Source: Streptomyces sp. OR43 (GTDB lineage: Bacteria > Actinomycetota > Actinomycetes > Streptomycetales > Streptomycetaceae). From it: a stretch of DNA of 64,000 nucleotides. A program made the translations under genes and the position numbers. The stretch spans positions 1,645,319 through 1,709,318 of the forward strand of contig NZ_RDBK01000043.1 in the NCBI RefSeq assembly GCF_008042275.1. Reading direction: 5' to 3'. This document shows, piece after piece, positions 15,661 through 43,246 of this stretch; position 1 is the stretch's first letter, and each line of letters starts with the position of its first letter. The notes beneath the pieces are model-generated. The model had not been told where the DNA came from and did no database searches. It was given only the letters and a program-made list of their open reading frames with translations.

Positions 15661-15717
15661 GCCCCACCGCGCAGGACCCGTCTCATGTGAAGAGCCGTCC
15701 TGCTTCTCGTACGCCAC

Positions 15718-15745
15718 GGGCTCCGTTTCACGTGAAACGGAGCCC
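15718..15745. other. parS site within a 28-base perfect palindrome
   Basis: GTTTCACGTGAAAC at 15725-15738 is flanked by GGGCTCC on the left and GGAGCCC on the right, giving a 28-base perfect palindrome. It lies between the convergent MATE and rplI genes, so the RNA hairpin could also end transcription of the MATE gene. Confidence 0.93.
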
Positions 15746-15754
15746 GGCAACGGC

Positions 15755-25002: not shown

Positions 25003-25305
25003 CGAACGACTACTCCTCGGGCAGGCGAGATCGCCTGGAAGCGGCAGTTGAGATCCGGTCCCCCCGAATTACGGACCAGCCCTGCGACAGGCTCATCCGC
25101 AGTGCATCCGGTCAGTCCGCGAAAACTGACGCACTCGGACGTCACACGGTTCCCGGTGGTCTGCATGCCGCACAGACTACGCACGGTCAAAACCCTCCTG
25201 GGGCCGAACTTCACCCCAAATTACGCAAGTCGGTTGCTACGAATTAGCGATGTGACGCCGCTCACTAAGGCCCCCCTTGTCGCAGCCCCGACTCCGATCT
25301 ATCGT
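25003..25305. other. Gene-free stretch upstream of the PBP gene
   Basis: This is the PBP-side part of the 400-base gap between the PBP and padR genes. It must contain the leftward PBP promoter. I see two short matches, CTCGGACGTCACACGG near 25135 and ACGTCACT-like sequence inside the PBP gene, but no convincing -35/-10 pair. No open frame with typical codon use covers it. Confidence 0.4.
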
Positions 25306-25332
25306 GCTGATGTATCGAGTCGATACATCAGC
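25306..25332. promoter_or_regulatory. Putative PadR operator
   Basis: GCTGATGTATCG (25306-25317) and its complement (25321-25332) form a 27-base inverted repeat with a 3-base centre. The inner ATGT...ACAT spacing matches known PadR operators. Three degenerate copies of the half-site, each starting CTCGG(T/C)ACA, follow at about 25333-25370, reaching to within 35 bases of the padR start. Autoregulation is the likely purpose. Confidence 0.75.
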
Positions 25333-25403
25333 TCGGTACATCGACTCGGCACATCGGCTCGGCACACGGCACGTGAGAGCACTCGGAGAAGGAGGAGGCG
25401 AGG

Positions 25404-26108
25404 TTGAGCAGACGCTCAGGCATCCTCGAGTTCGCCGTCCTCGGACTGCTCCGCGAGTCCCCGATGCACGGTTACGAGCTGCGCAAGCGCCTCAACACGT
25501 CATTGGGGATCTTCCGTGCCTTCAGCTACGGAACCCTTTACCCCTGCCTCAAGACGCTGGTCGCCAACGGCTGGTTGATCGAGGAACCGGGAAATGTTCC
25601 GGCAGACCTTCCGCCCGGCGCCGGCCGTGCGGTCGCCCCCGCCTCCTCACTGGCAGGGCGCCGCGCCAAGATCGTCTACCGGTTGACGGCAGAAGGTAAG
25701 GAGCACTTCGAGGAACTGCTCTCGCACACGGGCCCCGACTCCTGGGAGGACGAGCACTTCGCTGCTCGTTTCGCCTTCTTCGGTCAGACGGAGCACGAGG
25801 TGCGGATGCGGGTGCTGGAAGGCCGTCGCAGCCGGCTGGAGGAGCGCCTGGAGAAGATGAGCGCCTCTCTGGCCCGCACCCGCGAGCGCCTCGACGACTA
25901 CACACTTGAGCTTCAGCGACACGGCATGGAGTCCGTGGAGCGCGAAGTGCGCTGGCTGAACGAGCTCATCGAGAGCGAGCGGTCGGGACGGGATCAGCGA
26001 CGATCCTCGCCCGAGGGCTCAGCTCAGCAGAACACCGCAGGAGAGCCGGACGGCCTGCCCCGGCGGGGTAACAACCCGCCGGATCCGTCCGGCGACACCG
26101 CCAAGTGA
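25404..26108 (+). CDS. PadR-family transcriptional regulator
   Basis: The 234-residue regulator has the PadR winged helix (about 5-95: [21 protein letters not shown], then [14 protein letters not shown]). It then has a long C-terminal coiled coil (about 125-195, [18 protein letters not shown]) for dimerisation, and a hydrophilic tail. The start is a TTG at 25404 directly behind GGAGGAGGCGAGG. It begins 71 bases after the operator-like inverted repeat. The inositol phosphate synthase gene follows with a 62-base gap, so PadR probably regulates itself and perhaps ino1. Confidence 0.9.
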
Positions 26109-27253: not shown

Positions 27254-27320
27254 CGTCACCTGACACGGTGCATCGGCGCGGAGCAGTGAGGAGCGGCAAC
27301 GCTCCTTGACTCACGCACCA

Positions 27321-27357
27321 TTGAGGGTCCCCGGGCAATCCGCCCGGGGACCCTCAA
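27321..27357 (+). terminator. Strong terminator after ino1
   Basis: A 16-base perfect stem (27321-27336 with 27342-27357, starting TTGAGGGTCCCCGGGC) has a 5-base loop. It lies 67 bases after the ino1 stop and 20 bases before the next gene. Confidence 0.92.
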
Positions 27358-27377
27358 CGTGTGTGACCCTTGCTCCC

Positions 27378-28646
27378 ATGCCCGTCGTGCGTGACCTGCG
27401 CGTACTCCTGCGCCTTCGGAACTTCCGCCGCCTGCTGGCCGTGCGGATCCTGTCCCAGTCCGCCGACGGCGTCTACCAGGTCGCCCTCGCCGCACATGTC
27501 GTCTTCTCCCCGGAGAAGCAGGCCTCCGCCGGTGCGATCGCCTCCGCGATGGCCGTACTCCTGCTGCCCTACTCGCTCATCGGCCCCTTCGCCGGTGTGC
27601 TGCTGGACCGTTGGCCACGCAGGCAGGTCTTCCTGTACGGCAATCTGCTGCGCGCCGCACTCGCCTGCTGTACGGCCCTCCTGATCCTCGGCTCAGCCCC
27701 TGACTGGCTCTTCTACGCCTCGGCGCTCTGTGTGACCGCGGTCAACCGCTTCGTCCTGGCCGGGCTCTCCGCCGCGCTGCCACGCGTCGTCGACCGGGAC
27801 CTGCTGGTGCTGGCCAACTCGCTGTCGCCGACTGCGGGCACCCTCGCCGCCACGGCGGGCGGCGGTCTCGCCTTCGCCGTCCGTCTGGTCCTCTCGGACT
27901 CCGACGCCGCGGTGGTACTCCTGGGCGCCGGGCTGTATCTCGCCTCGGCACTGGCATCCCTGAGTCTCGCCTCCGGCCTGCTGGGTCCGGACCGGAGCGA
28001 AAGCCACCTTCGCCTGCGTGCGGCGCTGACCACCACCGCACGCGGTCTGCGCCGCGGATTGCACCATCTGGCAGAACGAAGGAACGCCGCTCGGGCCCTG
28101 GCCGCCATGACGGTGATCCGCTTCTGTTACGGGGCACTCACGGTCATGGTCCTGATGCTGTGCCGGTACGCCTGGACCGACAACGACTCCGACGGGCTGG
28201 CCCTGCTCGGTCTCGCCGTCGGGGTATCCGGTGCGGGCTTCTTCGCAGCGGCCGTGCTGACTCCGTGGGCCGCCGGCCGGCTGGGAAGGTTCCGCTGGAT
28301 GATGGTGTGTGCTGCCGCGGCCGCTGTCCTTGAGCCGGCCCTGGGGCTCTGGTTCAGGCCCGCCCCGATGCTCGTCGCAGCGTTCGTCCTCGGTCTGGTC
28401 ACCCAGGGAGCGAAGATCGCGACGGACACCGTGGTGCAGACGGCGGTGGACGACTCGTTCCGCGGCAGAGTCTTCTCGCTCTATGACGTGCTGTTCAACG
28501 TGGCCTTCGTGGCCGCCGCCGCAGCCTCCGCGCTCCTCCTGCCCGCAGACGGGAGATCGGCAACGGTGGTGATCGGGGTCGCTCTGCTCTACGCCCTCGT
28601 GGCCGCGATGCTGTGGCGATGGAGCAGGACCGTCCGAGGGCGCTGA
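27378..28646 (+). CDS. MFS transporter
   Basis: The 422-residue membrane protein has 10-12 predicted helices. It starts MPVVRDLRVLLRLRNFRRLL, and the DRWPRRQVFLYGN loop after helix 2 is the MFS signature. It resembles the DHA3/enterobactin-exporter-like branch. The substrate is unknown. The ATG at 27378 lies only 20 bases after the ino1 terminator, leaving little room for a leader; a GTG-rich stretch upstream lacks a ribosome binding site. It converges on the CCA-adding enzyme gene across two parS palindromes. Confidence 0.85.
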   Translation: MPVVRDLRVLLRLRNFRRLLAVRILSQSADGVYQVALAAHVVFSPEKQASAGAIASAMAVLLLPYSLIGPFAGVLLDRWPRRQVFLYGNLLRAALACCTALLILGSAPDWLFYASALCVTAVNRFVLAGLSAALPRVVDRDLLVLANSLSPTAGTLAATAGGGLAFAVRLVLSDSDAAVVLLGAGLYLASALASLSLASGLLGPDRSESHLRLRAALTTTARGLRRGLHHLAERRNAARALAAMTVIRFCYGALTVMVLMLCRYAWTDNDSDGLALLGLAVGVSGAGFFAAAVLTPWAAGRLGRFRWMMVCAAAAAVLEPALGLWFRPAPMLVAAFVLGLVTQGAKIATDTVVQTAVDDSFRGRVFSLYDVLFNVAFVAAAAASALLLPADGRSATVVIGVALLYALVAAMLWRWSRTVRGR

Positions 28647-28662
28647 TACAACCGAGGACACT

Positions 28663-28712
28663 GATACATCCGAGGGCGCTGTTTCACGTGAAACAGCGCC
28701 CTCGGATGTATC
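28663..28712. other. parS site at the centre of a 50-base perfect palindrome
   Basis: The parS core is 28681-28694. The arms GATACATCCGAGGGCGCT (28663-28680) and their exact complement (28695-28712) make 50 bases of perfect dyad symmetry. The site starts 17 bases after the stop of the rightward MFS gene, so it can act as that gene's terminator as well as a ParB site. A near copy of the left arm (CTGATACAACCGAGGACA) precedes it at 28643-28660. Confidence 0.95.
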
Positions 28713-28731
28713 TACTGCTGGTGCATCTACT

Positions 28732-28763
28732 GCTGGTCATGTTTCACGTGAAACATGACCAGC
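28732..28763. other. parS site within a 32-base perfect palindrome
   Basis: The parS core 28741-28754 is flanked by GCTGGTCAT and its complement. It lies exactly 60 bases from the preceding parS and 33 bases past the stop of the leftward CCA-adding enzyme gene. CTACTGCTGGT occurs twice between the two sites. Confidence 0.95.
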
Positions 28764-28795: not shown

Positions 28796-30238
28796 TCAGC
28801 TCTGTGCCGCCCACCACTTCTTCAGCTCTGCCACTGCCGTGTCGTGCTCCATCGGCCCGTTCTCCAGACGCAGTTCAAGCAGGAACGCATACGCCTTGCC
28901 GATGACCGGCCCAGGTCCGACGTCAAGGATCTTCATGATCTCGTTGCCGTCCAGGTCCGGCCGGATCGAGTCCAGCTCCTCCTGGTCCTGCAACTGAGCA
29001 ATGCGCTCCTCGAGCCCGTCATAGGTCCGCGAGAGAGCACTGGCCTTGCGCTTGTTGCGCGTGGTGCAGTCCGAGCGGGTCAGCTTGTGCAGCCGCTCCA
29101 GCAAAGGCCCGGCATCGCGCACATAGCGGCGGACAGCCGAGTCGGTCCATTCCCCGTCGCCGTACCCGTGGAAGCGCAGGTGCAGCTCCACCAGCTTGGC
29201 AACGTCCTTGACCATGTCGTTGGAGTACTTGAGATCGGTCATGCGCTTCTTGACCATCTTGGCGCCGACCACTTCGTGGTGGTGGAACGAGACGCGCCCG
29301 TCCTTCTCGAACCGCCGGGTCCGCGGCTTGCCGATGTCATGGAGGAGAGCGGCGAGACGCAGAACGAGATCCGGCCCGTCCTCCTCCAGGTCGATCGCCT
29401 GCTCCAGGACGGTCAGGGAGTGCTCGTAGACATCCTTGTGGCGGTGATGCTCGTCACGTTCCAGCCGGAGCGCGGGGAGCTCGGGAAGGACCCGGTCAGC
29501 CAGTCCCGTGTCGACGAGGAGCGCGAGCCCTTTACGAGGGTGCGAGGAGAGCAGCAGCTTGTTGAGCTCCTCCCGGACCCTCTCGGCAGAGACGATCTCG
29601 ATCCGGCCCGCCATCTCCGTCATCGCGGCGACGACGTCGGGAGCCACCTCGAAGTCGAGCTGCGCAGCGAAGCGCGCGGCGCGGAGCATGCGCAGCGGGT
29701 CGTCGGAGAAGGAATCCTCAGGCGTTCCCGGGGTACGCAGCACGCGCTCCGCCAGGTCATCGAGGCCACCGTACGGGTCGACGAACTCCTTCTGTGGCAG
29801 CGCGACGGCCATCGCGTTCACCGTGAAATCACGGCGGACGAGGTCCTGCTCGATGGAGTCGCCGTAGGAGACCTCGGGTTTCCGTGAAGTCCTGTCGTAC
29901 GCCTCGGACCGGTATGTGGTGACTTCGATCTGGTAGCCGTCCTTCTGCGCGCCCACCGTGCCGAAGGCGATCCCGACCTCCCACACCGAGTCCGCCCAGG
30001 GCCTGACGATCTTCAGCACGTCCTCGGGGCGTGCGTCGGTCGTGAAGTCCAGGTCGTTCCCCAGCCTGCCGAGGAGCGCGTCCCGGACCGACCCGCCGAC
30101 CAGGGCGAGACCGAATCCGGCATCCTGGAATCGGCGGGCGAGATCGTCGGCGACCGGGGACACCCGCAGCAGTTCGCTGACTGCGCGGAGCTGCACCTGG
30201 GTCAGGGCGCTGGAGTTGTCTTCATTGGCGTTCGGCAC
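28796..30238 (-). CDS. cca: CCA tRNA nucleotidyltransferase
   Basis: The 480-residue class II nucleotidyltransferase adds or repairs the 3' CCA of tRNAs. The head carries GLALVGGSVRDALLG and the two catalytic aspartates in DLDFTTDARPEDV. The neck RRDFTVNAMA and the RMLRAARFAAQLDF helix follow. An HD domain is present (LLHDIGKPRTRR) with phosphohydrolase potential. The window's tRNA-Ile gene lacks an encoded CCA and would need this enzyme. The start is a GTG at 30238 without a ribosome binding site; TACCCT 8 bases upstream suggests a leaderless mRNA. Confidence 0.93.
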   Translation of the reverse strand: MPNANEDNSSALTQVQLRAVSELLRVSPVADDLARRFQDAGFGLALVGGSVRDALLGRLGNDLDFTTDARPEDVLKIVRPWADSVWEVGIAFGTVGAQKDGYQIEVTTYRSEAYDRTSRKPEVSYGDSIEQDLVRRDFTVNAMAVALPQKEFVDPYGGLDDLAERVLRTPGTPEDSFSDDPLRMLRAARFAAQLDFEVAPDVVAAMTEMAGRIEIVSAERVREELNKLLLSSHPRKGLALLVDTGLADRVLPELPALRLERDEHHRHKDVYEHSLTVLEQAIDLEEDGPDLVLRLAALLHDIGKPRTRRFEKDGRVSFHHHEVVGAKMVKKRMTDLKYSNDMVKDVAKLVELHLRFHGYGDGEWTDSAVRRYVRDAGPLLERLHKLTRSDCTTRNKRKASALSRTYDGLEERIAQLQDQEELDSIRPDLDGNEIMKILDVGPGPVIGKAYAFLLELRLENGPMEHDTAVAELKKWWAAQS

Positions 30239-36847: not shown

Positions 36848-37570
36848 GTGGCCGCCGAGCCGTCCGGATCACTCAGCGACTCAGACCTCCTCGCTCGCCA
36901 TGTAGCCGGCGACCCCGACGCCTTCGGTGAGCTCGTAGGACGTCATCGCGACCGGCTGTGGGCCGTGGCGTTGCGGACGCTGGGCGACCGCGAGGAAGCG
37001 GCCGATGCCGTGCAGGACGCACTGATCTCCGCCTTCCGCGCCGCCCACACCTTCCGCGGCCAGTCCGCCGTCACCACCTGGCTGCACCGGATCACGGTCA
37101 ACGCCTGCCTCGACCGGGTCCGGAAGGCCTCTTCCCGGAAGACCGCCCCGGTCGACGACGCGGAGCGGCTCGACCAGCTCATGGAGCCCCACGAGTCCGC
37201 CGAGGCCCCTGCCGAGCGCCAGGACCTTCAGCGCGAGCTGTTCGCGGCCCTGGCCACACTCCCTGCCGAACAACGCGCCGCCCTCGTCCTCGTCGATATG
37301 CAGGGGTACCCGGTGGCGGAAGCGGCCCGCATCCTCGATGTGCCGGTCGGCACCGTGAAGAGCCGCTGTGCACGGGGACGCGCCAGGCTGGCCCCTCAGC
37401 TCACCCATCTCCGCAGCGGGACCGGCGACGGTGAGCGACCAGGGACGGAAGAGGGGCCGGGAACGGAAGGGAACCGGACGCCGAGGGCATCCGTCCCACC
37501 GGCGGCAGGACCAAGGGACGCGGACACGAGTGATCCAGCGGCAGCGAAGGGCGGAGGTGGACGCACATGA
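36848..37570 (+). CDS. sigM: ECF sigma factor SigM
   Basis: The 240-residue group IV sigma factor has region 2 (about 20-90, LWAVALRTLGDREEAADAVQ) and region 4 (about 130-185, VAEAARILDVPVGTVKSRCA). An unusual hydrophilic Gly/Glu-rich C-terminal tail of about 55 residues follows. GGGAGGGAGGGGGAG directly before the GTG at 36848 selects this start over the GTG at 36803. The anti-sigma gene overlaps the end by 4 bases, implying coupled translation. The target promoters are not visible here. Confidence 0.88.
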   Translation: MAAEPSGSLSDSDLLARHVAGDPDAFGELVGRHRDRLWAVALRTLGDREEAADAVQDALISAFRAAHTFRGQSAVTTWLHRITVNACLDRVRKASSRKTAPVDDAERLDQLMEPHESAEAPAERQDLQRELFAALATLPAEQRAALVLVDMQGYPVAEAARILDVPVGTVKSRCARGRARLAPQLTHLRSGTGDGERPGTEEGPGTEGNRTPRASVPPAAGPRDADTSDPAAAKGGGGRT

Positions 37571-38508
37571 CATCAACGACCGACGCGACCCGGCACCCGG
37601 ACGTCTCGGAGATCTCCGACCTCACCGAGGACCTGCTCCCTCCGTCCCGTGCCGAGGATGTCCGAGGGCATCTGGCCGGCTGTGGAATCTGCTCCGATGT
37701 CCTGTCTTCGCTGGAGGAAATCCGTGGGCTCCTGGGCACCTTGCCCGCCGCGGCACCCATGCCCGCCGATGTCGCGGACCGCATAGACGCCGCCCTAGCG
37801 GACGAAGCACGAGAGCGCGCTCCCTTCGAGGCGCCGTCCTCCACGGCAGATGTTTCACGTGAAACAGACCCCACCGTCACTACGAAGGAGCTCGGGGACC
37901 GCCCCGCAGGGCGCTCACGCGCCGCCACTGGCCCCGGCCGCCGCACTGTCCGCCGACGGCGCCGAAACGCAGTGCTCGGGGCGGCACTCGGCGCCGCTGT
38001 CGTCAGCGTGAGCGTCCTGCTTCTGCAGAACGTCACCTCGTCCGGCAGTTCGGCCGGTCTCAAGTCGGCCGACCAGGGCGTCAGCGCTTCCAGGGACGGG
38101 TCACAGGCGTTCTCGCAGTCCACACTGGAAGAACGGGTACACAGCCTGCTGGGCTCCGGCGCGGACTCGGTCGGCCCGCAGGAATCCAGCGGCGAGAAGC
38201 AGGATCCTTCCGCCGATACGAAGTCTTCGGCGAAATCCACGTCGCCCACATCCGCATCACCCCAAACGCCACTCCGCGCTCCTTCCGTGACCGTCCCCCC
38301 TTGCATCGCTCAGGGCACCGGCCGGAACACCGCCGCCCTCGCCATCGAGCGGGGCACCTACGAAGGTTCCGACGCCTTCCTCGTTGTCCTGCCGCACCCC
38401 ACCGACTCCGCCAGGGTTCAGGCTTACGTCATCGACGCGGCATGTGTCGATGCCAAGCCTGCGGCCAAGGGGCAGCTCCTGCTGACGCACGTCTACGCAC
38501 GCCCCTGA
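37567..38508 (+). CDS. Zinc-type anti-sigma factor for SigM
   Basis: The 313-residue protein has an N-terminal anti-sigma domain with the HLAGCGIC (HxxxCxxC) zinc motif near residues 35-42. A disordered linker, one membrane helix (about 140-160, RRNAVLGAALGAAVVSVSVLL) and an extracellular Ser-rich domain of about 150 residues follow. It should bind SigM at the membrane until an envelope or redox signal frees it. The ATG overlaps the sigM stop (ATGA). A parS site lies inside the linker-coding region, translated as VSRET. Confidence 0.87.
   Translation: MTSTTDATRHPDVSEISDLTEDLLPPSRAEDVRGHLAGCGICSDVLSSLEEIRGLLGTLPAAAPMPADVADRIDAALADEARERAPFEAPSSTADVSRETDPTVTTKELGDRPAGRSRAATGPGRRTVRRRRRNAVLGAALGAAVVSVSVLLLQNVTSSGSSAGLKSADQGVSASRDGSQAFSQSTLEERVHSLLGSGADSVGPQESSGEKQDPSADTKSSAKSTSPTSASPQTPLRAPSVTVPPCIAQGTGRNTAALAIERGTYEGSDAFLVVLPHPTDSARVQAYVIDAACVDAKPAAKGQLLLTHVYARP
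37852..37865. other. parS site inside the anti-sigma gene
   Basis: Exact GTTTCACGTGAAAC read as V-S-R-E-T in the linker of the anti-sigma protein, where sequence is free to vary. Symmetry extends only to 16 bases. Confidence 0.93.
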
Positions 38509-40005: not shown

Positions 40006-40019
40006 GTTTCACGTGAAAC
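40006..40019. other. parS site
   Basis: Exact GTTTCACGTGAAAC between convergent trxA and GNAT genes. Its right half GAAAC forms the outer end of the adjacent terminator stem. Confidence 0.93.
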
Positions 40020-40050
40020 GGGCCCATCCCTCAGGGGGTGGGCCCGTTTC
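40015..40050. terminator. Terminator between trxA and the GNAT gene
   Basis: GAAACGGGCCCA (40015-40026) pairs with TGGGCCCGTTTC (40039-40050), extended inward by a wobble pair and three C-G pairs. It shares five bases with the parS site. Confidence 0.85.
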
Positions 40051-40904: not shown

Positions 40905-42008
40905 TCAGCCCTCGTCGTCCTCGGCCGGCTCCTCCGCGGTATCGCGGTCCAGGACACGGCCCTCGCCCGGCGCGAGGCTGCCGAGGATGCGGTCCAGGTC
41001 CTCCATCGAGGCGAACTCGACGACGATCTTTCCCTTCTTCTGCCCGAGGTCCACCTTCACCCTGGTCTCGAACCGGTCGGACAGCCGGGACGCCAGGTCC
41101 GTGAGCGCCGGCGACAGCCGGCTGCCGGCTCGCGGTCCCTTCGAACGGGCCGTGCTCGTCGGCCTGGAGCTCATGAGCGTCACGATCTCCTCGACCGCGC
41201 GCACGGAGAGCCCCTCGGCCACGATGCGATGCGCCAGCTTGTCCTGCTCATCGGAGTCGTCCACCGACAGCAGCGCCCGTGCGTGTCCTGCCGACAGCAC
41301 GCCGGCTGCGACCCGGCGCTGAACCGGCGGAGACAGCCGCAGCAGACGCAGGGTGTTGGACACCTGCGGCCGGGAACGCCCGATCCGGTCGGCCAGCTGG
41401 TCATGGGTGCACTTGAAGTCCTTGAGCAGCTGGTCGTACGCGGCGGCCTCCTCCAAGGGGTTCAGCTGAGCCCGGTGAAGGTTCTCCAGAAGCGCGTCCA
41501 GAAGGAGCTTCTCGTCGTCAGTGGCCCGGACGATCGCCGGGATCTGCTTCAGATCGGCCTCACGGCAGGCCCTCCAGCGCCGCTCGCCCATGATGAGCTC
41601 GAAGCGCCCGGACGCCGCCTTTCGTACGACGACGGGCTGGAGAAGACCCACCTCCTTGATAGAGGTGACCAACTCGGCGAGCGCGTCCTCGTCGAACACC
41701 TCACGCGGCTGACGAGGGTTCGGCGTGATGGAGTCGATGGGAAGCTCGGCGAAGTATGCGCCGGCCACCTCTGCCGGGCCCGCGCTGCCGTCGGACACCG
41801 AGACCGGTGCGCTCGGCTCCGGTACCACGGGGCCACCCGAGCCCATGCTGGTCACCTTCGCGACGGCCACACCCCGCTCGGACGTCAGCACCGGCATCGA
41901 GCCGGGCGCTCCCGCGCCCATCCCGGCAGGCGGCACCTGCTTCTCCTGCGGAGCGGCGGGGATCAGGGCACCCAGCCCTCGCCCCAAACCTCTGCGACGC
42001 TCACTCAC
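40905..42008 (-). CDS. parB: Chromosome-partitioning protein ParB
   Basis: The 367-residue ParB clamps at parS sites and spreads to form the segregation complex near oriC. It begins [15 protein letters not shown] and has a linker of about 80 residues. The CTPase/ParB N-domain (about 90-180) shows GERRWRAC and [10 protein letters not shown]. The central helix-turn-helix (about 190-260) contains [15 protein letters not shown], and the C-terminal dimerisation domain is acidic. The GTG at 42008 overlaps the parA stop by 4 bases (GTGA), so the two are translated together. Confidence 0.97.
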
Positions 42009-43081
42009 TGGATCCCCTCCGAAGTATTCTGCTGGCTGTTCCGGCTGCCCGTCCGGGCGTGCTGGGCCTCGTACTGGATCCCGACCCCGCGCAACGCGAT
42101 CTCACGGGCTGCTTCGAGGTAGGACAGGGACCCGCTCGAACCGGGGTCGTACGTGAGCACGGTCTGCCCGTAGCTCGGTGCTTCCGAGATCCGCACCGAC
42201 CGGGGAATGCTGGTCCGCAGCACCTCCTTGCCGAAGTGGCTGCGCACCTCCTCCGCGACCTGCGACGCGAGCCTCGTACGGCCGTCGTACATGGTGAGCA
42301 GGATCGTCGACACATGGAGATCGGGGTTGAGATGCCCCCGCACCAGGTCGACGTTGCGCAGCAGCTGCCCCAGCCCTTCCAGCGCGTAGTACTCGCACTG
42401 GATCGGGATCAGCACCTCCGCGCCGGCCACCAGAGCATTGACCGTCAGCAGGCCGAGCGAGGGCGGGCAGTCGATCAGGATGTAGTCGAGCGGCTGCTCG
42501 TACGCCTGGATCGCTCGCTGAAGCCGACTCTCCCGCGCCACCAGCGACACCAGCTCGATCTCCGCACCGGCGAGATCGATGGTCGCCGGGGCGCAGAAGA
42601 GACCTTCGACGTCCGGGACGGGCTGAACCACGTCGGAGAGCGGTTTGCTCTCTACCAGGACGTCATAGATGGAGGGGACTTCGGCATGGTGGTCGATACC
42701 CAGAGCCGTGGAGGCGTTCCCCTGCGGGTCGAGGTCGACCACCAGGACACGTGCGCCGTGGAGCGCAAGCGAAGCGGCAAGGTTGACCGTCGAGGTGGTC
42801 TTGCCTACCCCGCCCTTCTGGTTGGCCACCACCATGACCCGTGTCTGGTCAGGCCGCGGCAGCCCCTCGCCGGCACGGCCGAGGGCCTCCACCGCCAGCT
42901 GGGCCGCACGGCCGATGGGTGTGTCATCCATCGGCGGCGGTGTTTCACGTGAAACACCGTCCCCCGCCGATTCGGTTCGGGGACCGGGGACCGGATCGGT
43001 CATCGGTCCCGCGATGTTGGCGTCGGACCGCAAGGATTCACTCTCCTCGACTTCAGGCTCGCAATGAGCAGAGCCTGCCAT
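42005..43081 (-). CDS. parA: Chromosome-partitioning ATPase ParA
   Basis: From the ATG at 43081 the product is 358 residues: a hydrophilic N-terminal tail (1-75), then the deviant Walker ATPase with [17 protein letters not shown] and the DLDPQGNAS switch. It binds DNA non-specifically and positions ParB-origin complexes. The frame is open back to a GTG at 43243, but that stretch contains a perfect DnaA box and a parS site and looks regulatory, so I kept the shorter form. A parS site lies in the tail-coding part (VSRET). Confidence 0.93.
42942..42955. other. parS site inside parA
   Basis: Exact GTTTCACGTGAAAC, symmetry extending to 22 bases (42938-42959). It is read as V-S-R-E-T in the disordered tail of ParA, the same frame used in the anti-sigma gene. 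Confidence 0.94.
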
Positions 43082-43117
43082 GGTTTCGGGGTCGCGAACC
43101 AGCGAGGCCCGCTCTTC

Positions 43118-43144
43118 TGTGGATGAATCCACTTCTGTGGACAA
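43118..43144. promoter_or_regulatory. DnaA boxes in the parA upstream region
   Basis: A perfect TTGTCCACA box (43136-43144, minus) and a one-mismatch box (43118-43126, minus) lie 37-63 bases before the parA ATG, in the likely promoter zone. Confidence 0.65.
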
Positions 43145-43227
43145 CTCCGTAGCCCTAACGGGCCTGCGATGGCGAGGGGTGGCGGCCGCACGACCGCGGC
43201 CGATGATTCCATGCAGCAGAGAGCGAC

Positions 43228-43241
43228 GTTTCACGTGAAAC
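43228..43241. other. parS site upstream of parA
   Basis: Exact GTTTCACGTGAAAC, 147 bases before the parA start and about 4 kb from dnaA. It is the closest parS to oriC in this window. Confidence 0.94.
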
Positions 43242-43246
43242 ACGAT

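Follow-up and report, generated by a model that had tools for sequence, protein, structure and literature searches.

A gene for an MFS transporter and one for a CCA-adding tRNA nucleotidyltransferase face each other in Streptomyces sp. OR43, and the gap between them holds a pair of perfect palindromes, each with a parS core at its centre. In the window (the whole stretch of 64,000 nucleotides analysed here), the relevant features are as follows.

27306-28646, plus strand: MFS transporter gene, convergent partner (PF07690)
28633-28686, plus strand: 18-nt tandem repeat, three copies
28663-28712, no strand assigned: M hairpin (MFS-proximal), 50-bp perfect palindrome, half-arm 25
28681-28694, no strand assigned: parS core 1, GTTTCACGTGAAAC (16-mer at 28680-28695)
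28707-28736, plus strand: 15-nt tandem repeat, two copies, linking both palindromes
28732-28763, no strand assigned: C hairpin (CCA-proximal), 32-bp perfect parS palindrome, half-arm 16
28741-28754, no strand assigned: parS core 2, 60 bp from core 1
28796-30238, minus strand: CCA-adding tRNA nucleotidyltransferase gene, the other convergent partner (PF01743, PF12627, PF01966)
40905-42008, minus strand: parB, the expected binder (ParB_N, HTH_ParB, ParB_C)
42005-43243, minus strand: parA-like ATPase gene, ORF start uncertain

The palindrome at 28663-28712 is the longest inverted repeat of the window. Complementarity between its arms (28663-28688 and 28687-28712) is 100%, with an overlap at the central positions 28687/28688. 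Its half-arm of 25 compares with a maximum of 12 and a mean of 8.84 when the window was simulated 100 times with a first-order Markov model. The 16-bp palindromic parS consensus TGTTNCACGTGAAACA, quoted in PMC7022226, is found with 0 mismatches at 28680 and 28740, and both sites are accordingly assigned to parS; 9 sites of the window lie within 3 mismatches of this 16-mer, against 0.05 expected from shuffles. The dyad extends 17 bases past the 16-mer on each side and 18 past the 14-bp core, the latter being the extent given in an earlier note on this DNA. The same note's description of a 50-base perfect palindrome centred on parS and lying between convergent genes is borne out by the inverted-repeat search, the motif match, the simulations and the gene orientations. 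The second palindrome, spanning 32 bp, occupies the same intergenic gap. The MFS stop codon lies 35 bp ahead of the first core and falls in copy 1 of the 18-nt tandem repeat, while copy 3 overlaps the left arm of the 50-bp palindrome.

The setting is that of a chromosomal partition system. The genome carries 15 exact parS cores, 14 of them clustered in about 350 kb of a single contig, and the window itself holds both parB and the parA-like gene. Published counts are 16 sites for S. venezuelae and 24 for S. coelicolor (PMC4852455), with a mean of 22.8 sites across 20 closed genomes (PMC8743542), and ParB ChIP-seq peaks in S. venezuelae matched the parS sites near oriC (PMC4852455). Another parS palindrome of the window, at 15717-15746 (half-arm 15), also sits between convergent genes. 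Overlapping imperfect inverted repeats at 25295-25361, immediately ahead of the ORF at 25404, are possibly an operator.

As RNA, the 151-nt region folds with an energy of -90.4 kcal/mol (z -11.5), a stable GC-rich hairpin after a stop codon such as an intrinsic terminator would possess. No U-run directly follows either stem, a terminator scan of the window returned 0 sites, and a canonical U-tract terminator was rejected for want of that run. Among the hairpins of relatives, grouped by site and strand, the 8 nt past the stem contain 3 or more U in 14/66, 28/66, 17/69 and 10/69. A known RNA family was likewise rejected, as the 10 Rfam matches (E up to 1) all scored under their family gathering scores. 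Median fold energies of 50-nt segments are about -34 on the MFS side and -27 to -28 on the CCA side of the junction, compared with -20 at an intragenic parS site and -17 for random 50-mers. Long stable stems with few U form a recognised class of Streptomyces 3′ ends, for which U-tract-free termination, Rho or exonuclease protection have been considered; ends of this kind may thus be Rho-dependent or processed (PMC8269248, PMC12207403). The earlier note had proposed a strong terminator for the MFS gene. A very stable hairpin is indeed predicted by folding, the U-tract is absent, and termination would be one of several possible outcomes. Because the element is paired and lies between both convergent genes, it need not serve the MFS gene alone.

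The arrangement is conserved genus-wide at the junction next to the CCA-adding enzyme gene (hereafter the CCA gene). Among the best 80 of 582 confirmed CCA-gene matches, an exact parS core lies 3′ of the CCA gene in 80/80 relatives and two cores in 72/80. A perfect half-arm of at least 12 surrounds 113/152 cores; at least one scored half-arm reaches this length in 79/80 loci (the exception, L040, has a half-arm of 11), and both do so in 54/72 two-core loci. An opposite-strand ORF ends between -17 and +100 nt from the MFS-side core in 79/80 loci, which makes the junction convergent. Some species have MFS as the facing gene and others a small gene of a different kind; the hairpin pair stays. In 7/79 loci (L037, L047, L060, L069, L074, L077 and L086) the stop codon of the facing gene is a TGA within the parS core, so a ribosome terminating there would sit over the hairpin. 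The two cores are spaced 41-47 bp apart in 43/73 pairs, with 0 to 60 bases separating the stems; helical phasing of the cores was considered as well, and the signal was weak and post hoc (p = 0.032, remaining pairs) and was not used.

Several individual loci depart from the common layout, and some of those with one core have the appearance of losses. L081 and L040 have a single parS whose left and right arms match different parent hairpins, and these single cores look like products of deletion between two cores. The single-core loci L018 and L032 have N runs or poor sequence nearby. At the CCA junction of L149 (genome G049), the left arm is lengthened at its outer end by a tandem repeat of 13 nt, comparable to the 18-nt repeat of the window.

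The letters of the arms are variable among relatives, GC-rich and partly conserved, and their complementarity is maintained. In a set of 81 CCA-proximal and 73 MFS-proximal sites, with the window added, Watson-Crick pairing in register across arm positions 2-11 was found for 610/796 CCA-proximal pairs (77%) and 626/730 MFS-proximal pairs (86%), compared with fractions of 0.28-0.31 and 0.38-0.45, respectively, when the partner was slid by 1-3 bases; column-by-column shuffles agree. Parsimony on the CCA-gene tree counts 109 + 75 (about 184) replacements of one Watson-Crick pair by a different one, and 114 + 80 changes to a mismatch. The earlier note had suggested comparing the arms in related species: they are kept as complements there with many compensatory changes, which is good support for a hairpin under selection at parS. 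A compensatorily conserved hairpin between convergent genes is also what a bidirectional, U-lacking 3′ end would present. Covariation by itself cannot tell RNA selection from templated palindrome repair at the DNA level. Among parS hairpins whose stems reach 5 bp or more past the core, 111/135 are perfect, a share equalled by ordinary terminator-like hairpins of the same loci (27/33), whose perfection is biased upward because they were chosen by score. Arm mismatches comprise 10 GT, 13 AC and 7 others; with G-U preference absent on either strand, wobble pairing gave no information on strand-specific RNA selection.

An internal control is provided by the parS at 37852, which lies inside the coding ORF 37567-38508 by an ECF sigma factor gene and reads VSRET. 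It occupies the same position range in 73/80 relatives (74 sites), and a half-arm of at least 12 surrounds only 5/74 of these sites versus 113/152 cores at the CCA junction (Fisher p about 1e-23, for related species that are non-independent). Four of the five long-armed sites belong to close relatives with a common arm (half-arms 15-17).

A wider comparison took in 135 exact cores from 8 assemblies (the window's genome and seven more, of 11 genomes); one of these, G006, may be the source genome of L043, and the wider comparison partly overlaps the set of relatives. Context was scored from stop codons alone because the simple GC-frame ORF caller misplaces some starts. A half-arm of at least 13 was found for 22/86 cores just after a stop codon versus 2/49 others (Fisher p = 0.0018). 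With the CCA junction removed, the proportions are 11/72 versus 1/47 (p = 0.027) and, at a threshold of 12, 11/72 versus 3/47 (p = 0.16). Deep-intragenic sites have such arms in 0/13 cases and sites classed as 5′ or other in 2/36; one of the latter lies at the CCA junction, where the caller missed the stop codons. Long arms therefore tend toward gene ends, yet most gene-end parS sites lack them: 64/86 post-stop sites fall below half-arm 13, as do 61/72 outside the CCA junction and 111/135 of all sites in the 8 assemblies. A rule that every gene-end parS has long arms was rejected on these counts, and it is at the CCA junction that long-armed parS stands out most.

Other sites illustrate how variable the surroundings of parS can be. 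The gene-end tendency has its main exception in a 42-bp parS palindrome (half-arm 21) at position 1545 of L221, where a called stop codon is absent within 130 nt. Two distant parS sites of a single genome (1277 in L009 and 1280 in L010) lie directly after stop codons, with half-arms of 14 and 19. Downstream of the thioredoxin gene (trxA), the parS at 40006 abuts an ordinary hairpin (40015-40050), whose stem base incorporates the GAAAC half of this parS, a layout that recurs in relatives.

Outside the genus the arrangement becomes sparse. In other Streptomycetaceae (19 loci, 16 genera), an exact core adjoins the CCA gene end in 11 loci, 5 of which have a half-arm of at least 12. Among 15 sampled genomes of other actinobacterial families, 0/15 have a parS, whether exact or near, at a distance of up to about 1.6 kb from the end of the CCA gene. 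Long arms are rare in the 25 parS-centred loci from outside the genus, which come from 4 genomes of the family and 11 of the class (15 in total), the longest half-arms being 14 and 12.

Taken as a whole, it is likely that each parS forms the apex of a 3′-end hairpin that ends or protects both convergent transcripts and also loads ParB, one DNA stretch probably doing two jobs. In this model, the two parS-tipped hairpins would constitute a 3′-end module common to two convergent genes. At the DNA level each core would load ParB, as suggested by the exact motif, the intact parB nearby and the published S. venezuelae ChIP-seq. In RNA of either strand, the parS half-sites would form the top of a stem with an ACGU loop, which the gene-specific GC-rich arms would lengthen to 12-25 or more pairs. 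The hairpin might then mark or make the 3′ end of whichever gene's transcript enters it, either through termination or by protecting a Rho-made end, and two stems could serve both directions of transcription. Support comes from the perfect palindrome, the genus-wide conservation of the junction, the covarying arms and the placement right after stop codons. Against the RNA reading, the U-tract is absent, the symmetry could come from template switching, mismatches lack G-U preference, the excess of long arms outside the CCA junction is weak, a clade of four species shows half-arms of 15-17 within a coding gene, and in 7/79 loci the facing gene stops inside parS itself.

If this double function is true, a bacterial centromere site is built into gene ends genus-wide, offering a natural and easily mutated system for studying how ParB loading and transcription use common DNA. 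Core and arms are separable by design, so the interplay of ParB and transcription is directly testable. The two processes are known to meet in Caulobacter, where head-on transcription disturbs SMC travelling away from parS (PMC5583512). A stronger version would make the element a switch between centromere and terminator, in which a ParB-clamp roadblock aids termination and the hairpins shield ParB and SMC from RNA polymerase. Such a switch seems rather improbable; if it did operate, centromere occupancy would set gene-end behaviour during sporulation.

The alternative that survives best is co-location without benefit, whereby parS is tolerated in a noncoding gap that needs a 3′-end hairpin and their fusion gives no advantage. 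This is a genuine possibility, if not a probable one. It overlaps the double-function model and removes only the coupling. The trxA side, where parS stands beside a separate hairpin, is in keeping with it, whereas the genus-wide retention of the fusion at the CCA junction, often in both copies, argues the other way. Even so, a kept fusion shows maintenance and not benefit.

A neutral origin would dispense with selection for the hairpin altogether. The parS palindrome would seed hairpin-templated replication errors that copy one flank onto the other, by template switching or quasipalindrome correction, and long arms would persist wherever coding constraint allows. Perfection far out from the core fits such a process (the longest arms reach 24 bp beyond it, half-arm 31, in L080), as do the tandem repeats by the left arm in the window and in G049, the clade with long half-arms inside a coding ORF and the absence of G-U preference. 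The concentration of arms at one junction rather than at the orthologous coding site is harder to reconcile with it, and so are the rarity of long arms at 5′ or other sites, their absence from deep-intragenic ones, the GC-rich and partly conserved arm sequence and the link of placement to stop codons. A purely neutral account is for these reasons judged unlikely, and templating may provide variation for selection to keep.

A DNA-level function, with the arms enlarging a site for ParB, for SMC loading or for a different dyad-binder, whether by protein binding or as a cruciform, and with the RNA hairpin a by-product, is very improbable: strict Watson-Crick rather than wobble symmetry, the preferred core spacing and the weak helical hint in the remaining pairs speak for it, but variable arm letters make base-specific contacts unlikely, most parS sites of the same genomes are short-armed, and a bidirectional RNA hairpin accounts for the symmetry equally well.

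The double-function reading can be set beside three known systems. The present sites resemble the chromosomal ParABS parS of the Streptomyces origin region in their exact core, clustering and accompanying parB and parA-like gene. The sections of published descriptions considered here present chromosomal parS as a binding site only, with covarying arms and gene-end placement unmentioned. In the open-licence literature searched, parS within a terminator is unreported; an earlier mention elsewhere is possible. The HS-U-lack TEPs of Streptomyces, some of them bidirectional, are alike in having a long GC-rich hairpin with few U at a gene end (PMC8269248, PMC12207403). Those are mapped 3′ ends, in contrast to the present hairpins, which are candidate ones, and the main text of both papers mentions neither parS nor ParB. 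The DNA uptake sequences of Neisseria and Pasteurellaceae are also protein-recognised repeats proposed to build gene-end hairpins, an idea from Ambur 2007 that is cited in PMC2346458 as contentious. There, inverted-repeat pairs make the hairpin, whereas here a single parS palindrome supplies the apex and variable arms the stem. The CCA-junction element would be of this general kind, a protein-recognition repeat doubling as a gene-end hairpin, and the placement of DNA uptake sequences in terminators is the closest known idea.
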